The translations under genes were made by a program, and so were the position numbers. This document shows, in pieces, positions 48,530-52,046 of a stretch of 64,000 nt of DNA. Where the stretch lies: positions 1 through 64,000 of the forward strand of contig CAMAUE010000005.1 in the NCBI GenBank assembly GCA_945861245.1, read 5' to 3'. The stretch is from Singulisphaera sp. GP187 (GTDB taxonomy: Bacteria; Planctomycetota; Planctomycetia; Gemmatales; Gemmataceae). The notes under the pieces were generated by a model. That model was not told the origin of the DNA and did no database searches. It worked only from the letters and a program-made list of their open reading frames with translations. Numbering within the stretch: the stretch's first letter is position 1; the number at the start of each line of letters is the position of its first letter.

Positions 48530-48602
48530 AGGGGCGTAGCTCAATTGGCAGAGCAGCCGTCTCCAAAGCGGCAGGTTGAGCGTTCGACTCGCTCCGCCCC
48601 TG
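48530..48602 (+). tRNA. tRNA-Trp (CCA)
   Basis: 73 nt, acceptor AGGGGCG/CGCCCCT, anticodon stem GCCGT/GCGGC with loop CTCCAAA (anticodon CCA), T-arm GAGCG TTCGACT CGCTC. It precedes secE, the common bacterial arrangement. Confidence 0.95.
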
Positions 48603-48730
48603 TTGATTTGAAGCAAAGGCTTGTCGGGTACCCGAAAGACCAGAACGAGGTGATTTCGTAAGATCCAGGCTTTCCCCGTCTGGAGGCTCGTTCTCGAATA
48701 TTCAACAACTCCGCAAGGTAAGGATTGGCC

Positions 48731-49771
48731 ATGTCGGTCGCTGAAAATTCCCCGGTGCCGTCCGTAGCCGTGAAAAATCCGCAACAACAAGTTGCGATCC
48801 GTAGCTTTATCGGCGCGGTCGTGATATTGGCAGCTCTCGGTCTCGTGTTTGGTGCCATTCCCTATTTATGGTGGCAGGGCTGGGAGTCCTCGTTCGCAGG
48901 CAACGAGACTTTGAAAAACAACGTTTTTCTTTCCGAGGCTCTGTTGATTCTGCTCGAACTTGCCGTCATCGCCGGTTTGGGTTTCGGAGCGTATAGAGCT
49001 TCGCAGCAATTGGTTGAGCCTGGCGTTCGTTCGGGCATCGCACTCGTCGCCGTCGTCATTTTCATCGCATTGAATGTGTGTGTAATGCTTGGCGACACAA
49101 TGGAACAACAATATGGCCAGAACATCGCCCTCGGGTGGGCCGTGGTGTGCCTCGTCTTCGCAGCGATCATCGCCGGCGTTGGTTATTTGCTCTGGGCATC
49201 CCCAGCCGTCTTTCATCTGCTGGTTTCCGTTCAGGATCAAAATTGGTTTCACTTAAATTCCTACAAAGGAAATCAAGGCGTTCGCGTTCGTCGCGGCACG
49301 ATTGCAGGGGCAATCGCCGTGCTTGGGTGCGGAGTGGCCACCATGAATTTTCGAGGATTGTTCGGATCGACGGCTCAGGATGCCGCCAATGATTGGATAT
49401 GGCGCGTACCCTTCACCGCCGACGCGAACTACCACGGCGACTTCATTCCTGTGCTCTACAAAGTCCATATTATGCTGCCTTTGCTGCTATCGGTTGGCCT
49501 AATTTGGCTAGCGTGGCGTATTGTGAATGTCCCGGGCTTCGCGGATTTCTTGATTGCCACGGAAGCCGAAATGAACAAGGTATCATGGACGAGTCGCCGC
49601 CGCCTAATCCAAGACACGATCGTGGTGTTGGTTACCGTCGTCCTTTTCACTGGGTTTCTCTTCGTTGTTGACATTATTTGGATTCGAGTTTTGAGCGCGC
49701 CGGGCATCCGCGTGTTGCTAATTGACCCCAAAGAAGAGCAGCAAAAGCAGCAAGAAAAAGCGCAGTGGTAG
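48731..49771 (+). CDS. secE: SecE translocase subunit with large multi-pass N-terminal extension
   Basis: A 346-aa protein whose last ~75 residues are SecE: FLIATEAEMNKVSWTSRRRL (amphipathic helix), then the membrane helix TIVVLVTVVLFTGFLFVVDI. SecE is normally 60-130 aa. Here an N-terminal region of about 270 aa adds six predicted membrane helices (about 27-47, 66-88, 100-122, 136-166, 190-212, 245-268). The gene's place, between tRNA-Trp and nusG, supports the SecE call. The ATG at 48731 (AAGGA upstream) is chosen over a TTG two codons earlier. The N-terminal region may be a partner domain for the SecYEG channel; its role is not known. Confidence 0.88.
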   Translation: MSVAENSPVPSVAVKNPQQQVAIRSFIGAVVILAALGLVFGAIPYLWWQGWESSFAGNETLKNNVFLSEALLILLELAVIAGLGFGAYRASQQLVEPGVRSGIALVAVVIFIALNVCVMLGDTMEQQYGQNIALGWAVVCLVFAAIIAGVGYLLWASPAVFHLLVSVQDQNWFHLNSYKGNQGVRVRRGTIAGAIAVLGCGVATMNFRGLFGSTAQDAANDWIWRVPFTADANYHGDFIPVLYKVHIMLPLLLSVGLIWLAWRIVNVPGFADFLIATEAEMNKVSWTSRRRLIQDTIVVLVTVVLFTGFLFVVDIIWIRVLSAPGIRVLLIDPKEEQQKQQEKAQW

Positions 49772-49794: not shown

Positions 49795-50460
49795 ATGTCT
49801 GCTATGACCATCGAAAACACAACGCCTGAGCTACCCGGATCGTCTGCTGTGGCAATCGAAGCGCCGCCGCCCTCGGATCCACCTGCTGAGCCTGGTCCGG
49901 AAAAACCAAAGATCAGCCTGCATTGGTATGTAGTAAAGGTCCAAAGTGGCCGCGAGGAAACGATCAAAGAGTCCATAGAACGACGAGTCAAGATCGAAGG
50001 TCTGCAGGACTACTTCGGACAGATCGTCATTCCGACTGAAAAAGTCAGCGAAATGCGCAACGGTAAACGCATAGTGCGCGAACGCAAGTTGCTTCATGGC
50101 TACATTCTCACAAACGTCGAATTCAACGAGCATATGCTCTATCTTTTTCGCGAAACATCGGGAGTCGGTGATTTTGTCGGCACCGGCATTAATAAAAAGC
50201 CGATTCCGATGGGCGAGAACGAGATCAAGAAGTGGATCGGCAAAGGTGCCGCTGAAGACGGGCGCTCCCAGCCAGCTGATGTTTCGATTTCGCCATTCAA
50301 CGAGGGCGATCGCGTCAAGGTGAAGGACGGAATGTTCTCCGGCATGGACGGTTTTGTCAAGCAATTGATCGAAGCGAAAGGCTCAGTTGTCATCGAGCTT
50401 ACTATTTTCGGTCGCCCCGTTCCGGTCGAATTGGAATATTGGCAAGTGGAATTTGCGTAA
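49795..50460 (+). CDS. nusG: Transcription termination/antitermination factor NusG
   Basis: A 221-aa protein. A Pro/Glu/Ala-rich N-terminal extension of about 45 aa precedes the NGN domain (LHWYVVKVQSGREETIKESI to the RERKLLHGYILTNVE region) that binds RNA polymerase; the KOW domain is at the C-terminus (ISPFNEGDRVKVKDGMFSGM). Insert VGTGINKKPIPMGENEIKKW is in the standard place between domains. The ATG at 49795 lies 23 nt after the secE stop; an ATG at 49804 is an equally good start. Same order as in most bacteria: secE-nusG-rplK. Confidence 0.93.
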   Translation: MSAMTIENTTPELPGSSAVAIEAPPPSDPPAEPGPEKPKISLHWYVVKVQSGREETIKESIERRVKIEGLQDYFGQIVIPTEKVSEMRNGKRIVRERKLLHGYILTNVEFNEHMLYLFRETSGVGDFVGTGINKKPIPMGENEIKKWIGKGAAEDGRSQPADVSISPFNEGDRVKVKDGMFSGMDGFVKQLIEAKGSVVIELTIFGRPVPVELEYWQVEFA

Positions 50461-51018: not shown

Positions 51019-51134
51019 TTTTCGAGTAACCGGCACCGCAAAACGAAAGACGCGGACTCTCATTCTGCATAGGAAAGTAGAAAGAGCAGTGCTTCTGTTT
51101 TGTCGATGCGTTTTTGTATTTTTGGATAGTCATT

Positions 51135-52046
51135 ATGGCGAAGAAACCAACAGACGCAAGCGCGGAACTAAGCGCAAGCGAGACTCCGGCTCGGGAAGTG
51201 ACGGCGAAGAAGGCGAAGGCTCCGAGGCCGGTGCCTGCCGAATCGCCAGCTGCGAGCGATGTCGCCGCACCGCTATCTGGAGCCAAGCCTGCTGAAAAGC
51301 CGAAACTCGAAAGCGAGTCGGCCCGGGTGAAAAAGAAGCCTGGAATCTCGCCACGGCGCGGGAAGAAGCTCCGCAATCAGCTGAAGAATATGAACCAGCG
51401 TATCGAGAAAGAAGGCGCCGTTTCGCTGAAAAAAGCGGTCGGAATCCTCAAGCAGGCGAAGCGTTCCAAATTCGACGAGACTGTCGAGATCCATATGTCG
51501 CTCGGTGTGGATACCACTCAAAGCGATCAGCTGGTCCGCGGTACGGTTCCGTTACCGCACGGCGTCGGCAAGAAGGTGCGTGTGGTTGTCTTCTGTCAGG
51601 GCGACAATATTACGAAGGCGAAGGAAGCCGGAGCGGATTTCGCGGGCTCGGACGATCTGATCGAAAAGATCACCAAGCAAAACTGGCTCGATTTTGATGT
51701 TGCACTAGCGACGCAAGATTTGATGGGCAAGGTCAGTCGGCTTGGTAAGACTCTTGGTCCGCGCGGATTGATGCCGACTCCGAAAGCGGGCACGGTTATC
51801 ACGGGAGATGTCGCTCAGGCAGTGCTCGATTTCAAGGCCGGCAAAGTCGAATACCGCACCGACAAAGGTGGAAATGTCCACGCGGGCGTGGGTAAAGTGA
51901 GCTTCGATGACGACAAAATTGCGGACAATGTCGTCGCATTCGTCGATGCCATTCGCGGCGCCAAGCCGTCGGGTATTCGGGGTAACTACATTAATTCAAT
52001 TACGCTCTCTTCGACGATGGGACCTGGCGTGCCGCTAGTAATGTAA
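51135..52046 (+). CDS. rplA: Ribosomal protein L1 with N-terminal extension
   Basis: A 303-aa protein; the canonical L1 (about 230 aa) starts near residue 75 (RGKKLRNQLKNMNQRIEKEG) and contains FDETVEIHMSLGVDTTQSDQ and TLGPRGLMPTPKAGTVI. The first 70 or so residues are a low-complexity Ala/Pro/Lys/Glu-rich extension. The start is the ATG at 51135; none of the later ones has a better Shine-Dalgarno. L1 binds 23S rRNA at the E site and, in many bacteria, represses translation of its own operon mRNA. Confidence 0.95.
   Translation: MAKKPTDASAELSASETPAREVTAKKAKAPRPVPAESPAASDVAAPLSGAKPAEKPKLESESARVKKKPGISPRRGKKLRNQLKNMNQRIEKEGAVSLKKAVGILKQAKRSKFDETVEIHMSLGVDTTQSDQLVRGTVPLPHGVGKKVRVVVFCQGDNITKAKEAGADFAGSDDLIEKITKQNWLDFDVALATQDLMGKVSRLGKTLGPRGLMPTPKAGTVITGDVAQAVLDFKAGKVEYRTDKGGNVHAGVGKVSFDDDKIADNVVAFVDAIRGAKPSGIRGNYINSITLSSTMGPGVPLVM

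Follow-up and report, generated by a model that had tools for sequence, protein, structure and literature searches.

Few membrane proteins are shared by all domains of life; SecE is one of them, and it normally has one to three helices. The window analysed here (the whole stretch of 64,000 nucleotides, from Singulisphaera sp. GP187) carries a secE gene for a protein of 346 aa with seven helices, outside the usual range of the family (60-180 aa, one or three transmembrane (TM) helices; a usual range, not a defining one). The question raised by this locus is what the additional helices are. A preliminary description had taken only the final 75 residues as SecE, preceded by six added helices that might be a permanently fused SecYEG partner.

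The secE gene and its ordinary part

The open reading frame of the preliminary description was confirmed from its ATG onwards, with a Shine-Dalgarno sequence kept before the start (Table 1). The gene is present in single copy in the secE-nusG-rplK region, and its surroundings are standard (tufA, rpmG, tRNA-Trp, secE, nusG, rplK, rplA, rplJ, rplL, rpoB), the neighbours being named from their sequence and order. The rplA-like frame of this region (ribosomal protein L1, window 51114-52046) has an N-terminal extension of its own, about 65-70 residues long and rich in Lys, Ala, Pro and Glu. Since an open frame alone is weak evidence, the reading of the long SecE as an artefact (a wrongly called start, a frame read through from an ORF upstream, or a local fusion confined to a single assembly) was tested, and no support for it was found. 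The same N terminus, Shine-Dalgarno sequence and intact frame are present in dozens of independent assemblies, three of them from isolates (Zavarzinella formosa, Gemmata sp. IIL30 and Limnoglobus roseus). The relatives share their N-terminal residues (M-[SA]-x-A), and an AAGGA(T/C)-like Shine-Dalgarno motif is located just 5' of the ATG across relatives while the flanking DNA diverges. Between two close relatives, dN/dS was 0.27 for the extension and 0.09 for the SecE part, rough values given the few changes; judged from these ratios both parts are constrained, and this purifying selection also argues against an artefact, which we consider extremely improbable.

By its core the protein belongs to the SecE family. 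The Pfam domain PF00584 was matched at residues 273-321 (E 1.1e-11, 44.9 bits for a cut-off of 22.7) and TIGR00964 with a score of 42.5 (cut-off 27.55). Residues 1-269 matched no Pfam or NCBIfam family, and the extension is without a known family. By hydropathy, hydrophobic segments begin at seven places (residues 25, 65, 102, 132, 189, 247 and 297), and all of these segments are helical and of TM length in the AlphaFold2 model, which is a confident one (mean pLDDT 89.5).

A profile of ten SecEs from the class's other orders, which have 3 TM helices and about 145-180 aa, was aligned to residues 167-328 (hhalign 100%, E 5.7e-44); TM5 and TM6 therefore correspond to the usual TM1 and TM2, and four helices are added. 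Most SecE open frames in the phylum have 130-200 aa, show three hydrophobic segments (at times only two are detected) and begin near '[YH]K..QG...R', and the other planctomycete SecEs open with an amphipathic helix and 'YK..QG...R'. On the basis of these alignments, the ordinary 3-TM SecE comprises residues ~160-346 and the addition residues 1 to ~157. SecE is thus not restricted to the final 75 residues, and the additional helices are four and not the six of the preliminary description, a count that came from the Pfam domain covering only the last part of SecE. In the extension, the cytosolic loops are net positive and the periplasmic loops net negative, which indicates a cytosolic N terminus and places the added helices in line with the known SecE topology. 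The mean identity is 31% in the extension versus 48% in the SecE part, and P44, W47, G98, R100, G102, E168 and G171-W172-F173 are conserved positions.

Table 1. Features of the secE locus (window positions, forward strand; residues are those of SecE)
Feature	Position	Strand	Basis or remark
tRNA-Trp(CCA)	48530..48602	+	habitual upstream neighbour of secE
Shine-Dalgarno-like AAGGA ahead of the secE ATG	48720..48724	+	sequence; kept in relatives (12 compared)
secE	48731..49771	+	ATG ORF of 346 aa with seven TM helices predicted; the genome has no other SecE
Added hairpin 1 (two helices, residues 17-54 and 65-93)	48779..49009	+	AlphaFold2; unlike SecE or anything else in profile tests
Added hairpin 2 (two helices, residues 99-128 and 132-156, and the amphipathic helix 158-169)	49025..49237	+	AlphaFold2, profile comparisons
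YKGNQGVRVRRGT (residues 178-190), conserved cytosolic motif opening the ordinary planctomycete SecE	49262..49300	+	alignments
TM5 and TM6 (residues 184-207 and 245-266), equal to TM1 and TM2 of 3-TM SecE	49280..49528	+	alignments, AlphaFold2
Periplasmic loop TM5-TM6 (residues 208-244)	49352..49462	+	hydropathy, charge pattern; site of 100-330 aa inserts in some relatives
Conserved SecE domain PF00584, amphipathic helix and last TM helix	49547..49693	+	Pfam
C-terminal tail with terminal Trp	49694..49771	+	comparison with relatives
nusG	49795..50460	+	habitual downstream neighbour; named from sequence and conserved gene order

Distribution in Gemmatales

With residues 1-269 as the query, 60 of 99 relatives matched, all belonging to the family of the window or to a single sister family within the order, and no match was found in any other family of the class among these relatives. 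The profile of the extension alone was matched over its full length in 74 of the 84 Gemmatales genomes, always within a frame long enough to hold SecE; the ten others comprise seven without a detectable secE, one cut at a contig end (G345) and two (G320 and G323) with divergent long SecEs that have hydrophobic N-terminal segments. The same profile gave only three weak partial matches in the 214 other genomes of the class and only seven in the phylum sample (294 genomes), and these partial matches lie within larger unrelated frames, except in G495 where the frame is its own SecE. The homologue search suggested earlier for the N-terminal ~270 aa thus yielded relatives within the order but no stand-alone homologue, and no stand-alone copy of the bundle was found in the 298 genomes of the class and the 294 of the phylum. 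In a set of 80 named loci, 3-5 hydrophobic segments precede the YK motif in 69 and none in the 10 that come from other orders, and the remaining locus is truncated; the named records include those of the three isolates cited above and of Gemmatales bacterium KatS3mg105.

No loss of the extension was seen in any complete Gemmatales secE, and the simplest history is a single gain at the base of Gemmatales without loss. The long protein is a genuine order-wide SecE variant. The preliminary description had considered that short SecEs in most relatives would point to a local fusion or a miscalled start: short forms do prevail in the phylum, but not in the order, where every complete SecE is extended, and both explanations are ruled out by an extension fixed in the clade and a conserved start. 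The extension is not a trait of Planctomycetota as a whole, as had been envisaged, being confined to Gemmatales with short SecEs elsewhere in the phylum. A search of open-access full texts gave no paper that describes a long planctomycete SecE, and the variant is previously undescribed as far as this search shows. Two SecE matches each were found in four planctomycete genomes (G128, G160, G253 and G282), which may have second SecE copies. Several public MAGs titled Bacteroidales, Candidatus Kuenenia, Isosphaera or Singulisphaera (L078, L126, L138, L104, L106 and L120) carry a Gemmatales-type SecE, and their titles are probably wrong.

Two other traits were observed at the C-terminal end and in the periplasmic loop. 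A C-terminal Trp follows a variable tail in 66 of 70 Gemmatales SecEs and in none of the 10 outgroups; by open-frame length, three of the four exceptions belong to sister-family genomes, a family link that we infer. According to SecE topology the tail would be periplasmic, and a terminal Trp on an otherwise variable tail is reminiscent of a recognition motif at the C terminus. In several Gemmatales lineages (L047, L050, L051, L053, L109, L111, L114-L116, L118-L127, L129, L131 and L139), the TM5-TM6 loop has 100-330 extra residues, giving proteins of ~420-613 aa; these large inserts have no Pfam match and are probably lineage-specific periplasmic domains. In another planctomycete family, a 383-aa SecE (L023, 517-1668 of the reverse complement) has ~260 residues between TM1 and TM2, an insertion in the same place that is apparently independent.

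Given its lower conservation relative to the SecE part, the extension may be a non-adaptive addition, in which helices gained once would have been kept, neutrally or as a mild compensation, when their loss turned harmful (constructive neutral evolution), with no specific new partner. The higher dN/dS of the extension and the further accretion of lineage-specific loop inserts of no Pfam family are consistent with such a history; however, the absence of loss in any complete Gemmatales secE, the conserved positions given above and the near-invariant C-terminal Trp argue for defined contacts, and we hold this explanation to be rather unlikely.

Origin of the added helices

The preliminary idea of a permanently fused partner is correct in that the extension is lasting and fixed in the clade, but the absorption of a SecYEG partner is unsupported, these partners being encoded separately. 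An altered SecY was rejected, SecY being a single-copy separate gene of ordinary length, and so was a fusion to SecG, YajC, SecDF or YidC, all of which have genes of their own, in this genome as in the rest of the order. Because SecY, SecG, YajC, SecDF and YidC are all found as separate genes, no known Sec partner is absorbed into SecE. The SecDF frames of the window's genus (G000:C35:14677-16731) and of some relatives have ~1350-1470 aa, compared with ~950-1100 in many genomes elsewhere in the class, and this protein may be enlarged as well.

The added helices could also descend from an unrelated membrane protein, formerly a separate translocon partner, that was fused to SecE in the Gemmatales ancestor. 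The extension folds into a compact, confidently predicted four-helix bundle even when modelled alone (pLDDT 90.9), and hairpin 1 has no similarity to SecE, two points in favour of this origin. Against it, no stand-alone homologue exists in the class and phylum genomes searched, every known partner has its own gene, the upstream neighbour of secE is a tRNA gene, and hairpin 2 resembles SecE. Searches for relatives were equally negative: the extension (residues 1-174) has no relative among PDB sequences, Pfam searches with 53 extension members over the same residues gave scattered weak matches only and no Sec subunit, and Foldseek gave no match with E<=0.001 among PDB structures or viral models. 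A fusion of this kind appears doubtful to us.

The resemblance of hairpin 2 to SecE was hinted at by an early profile comparison between the end of the extension and the SecE hairpin (15%). A profile of hairpin 2 (residues 92-174) was run on 41 non-Gemmatales planctomycete SecE hairpins and gave a median of 9.4 bits versus 0.9 for the controls, which were 295 unrelated membrane hairpins from two genomes, not selected for the TM-Pro-amphipathic-helix shape. The 95th percentile of these controls was 6.8 bits, with a maximum of 18.1, and 26 of the 41 SecE hairpins were above this percentile. In the alignments, TM4 and 'SP....W...LEE' are paired with SecE TM2 and 'P..ADFLI.TE'. By hhalign, hairpin 2 matched the 41 SecE hairpins at 90% (E 1.5e-6) over ~36 columns, that is one TM and the amphipathic helix; none of 200 shuffles within eight-column blocks scored as high, reversed profiles gave nothing, and the match was still 81% with SecEs from outside the class only. 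When single hairpin-2 sequences were scored, 39 of 53 exceeded the control 95th percentile and 24 of 53 the control maximum. One of the three weak matches of the extension profile in the rest of the class (G495:C3:258102-258293) overlaps the secE of that genome. The match of hairpin 2 to the Gemmatales' own SecE hairpin was weak (19%), and hairpin 1 gave no signal of SecE duplication in the same profile tests.

Taken together, these profile comparisons indicate that the second helix of hairpin 2 and its amphipathic helix are likely, though not proven, to be a partial duplicate of the SecE TM2-amphipathic unit. The score may be raised by the shape that both have in common (TM, Pro break, amphipathic helix), and convergence is possible since the signal is short, the own-hairpin match is weak and the controls were not selected for this shape.

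Proposed role and comparison with known forms

In known translocons, SecY is braced at its back by the final helix of SecE and shielded by SecE from FtsH, and the two N-terminal helices of 3-TM forms are believed to stabilise an early state of insertion (PMC8082313). A SecE can consist of the core alone, single-helix forms being enough in many bacteria (PMC3087755). We consider it fairly probable that the Gemmatales protein is an enlarged SecE whose bundle was gained once in the ancestor of the order, partly by self-duplication; from these known roles, the sufficiency of a single helix and the covalent position of the bundle next to the N-terminal hairpin, it would most likely form an arm packed outside SecY as a scaffold. 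Several steps could be proposed: (i) residues ~160-346 would act as a complete 3-TM SecE, its last helix bracing the back of SecY and its amphipathic helix lying on the cytosolic surface, both by homology; (ii) the four-helix bundle of residues 1 to ~157 would have been added once and kept vertically, arising at least partly by duplication of the TM2-amphipathic-helix unit; (iii) being on the same chain as TM5-TM6, it may form an extra wall at the SecY periphery beside the N-terminal SecE hairpin; and (iv) it could be a scaffold stabilising SecYEG or docking another factor. Candidate contact points are the periplasmic tail with its terminal Trp and, on the cytosolic side, the conserved 'EEQGWF...YK..QG.RVRR' stretch near residues 168-190. 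The partial duplication has statistical support, and the packing against SecY and the scaffold role are proposals.

A bolder version of the enlarged SecE, to which we give little weight, is that the secretion channel of Gemmatales has been remodelled: with one hairpin unit duplicated and a second gained, a seven-helix collar would surround SecY, with a cytosolic docking face and a Trp tail read by a partner, possibly in relation to the invaginated membranes for which Gemmatales are known (PMC8567305). The link to the unusual membranes of planctomycetes suggested at the outset stands as a correlation only, and for a trait of Gemmatales, the order of Gemmata and Tuwongella, rather than of the phylum. 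An order-wide seven-helix SecE with signs of self-duplication, a Trp tail and periplasmic domains in sublineages shows that even the core export channel can be remodelled, and it offers a defined target for asking whether the Gemmatales translocon is specialised.

Among known systems, SecG, YajC, SecDF and YidC are membrane proteins associated with SecYEG, as the bundle might be, but they are separate genes, and no likeness in sequence or fold to the bundle was found. The single-TM SecE/Sec61-gamma proteins (59 aa in B. subtilis, and also in S. coelicolor, archaea and eukaryotes) share only the PF00584 core with the Gemmatales SecE, all six helices that precede this core being absent from them. 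The 3-TM form, of which the E. coli SecE (127 aa) is an example, corresponds to residues ~160-346: in both, an amphipathic segment at the N terminus is followed by the TM hairpin, the conserved amphipathic helix (..E.xKVxW..R..) and the last TM, and the gene has the same locus between tRNA-Trp and nusG. In contrast to this form, the Gemmatales SecE has four more TM helices in front and a longer, Trp-ended tail, to which some relatives add large periplasmic inserts.
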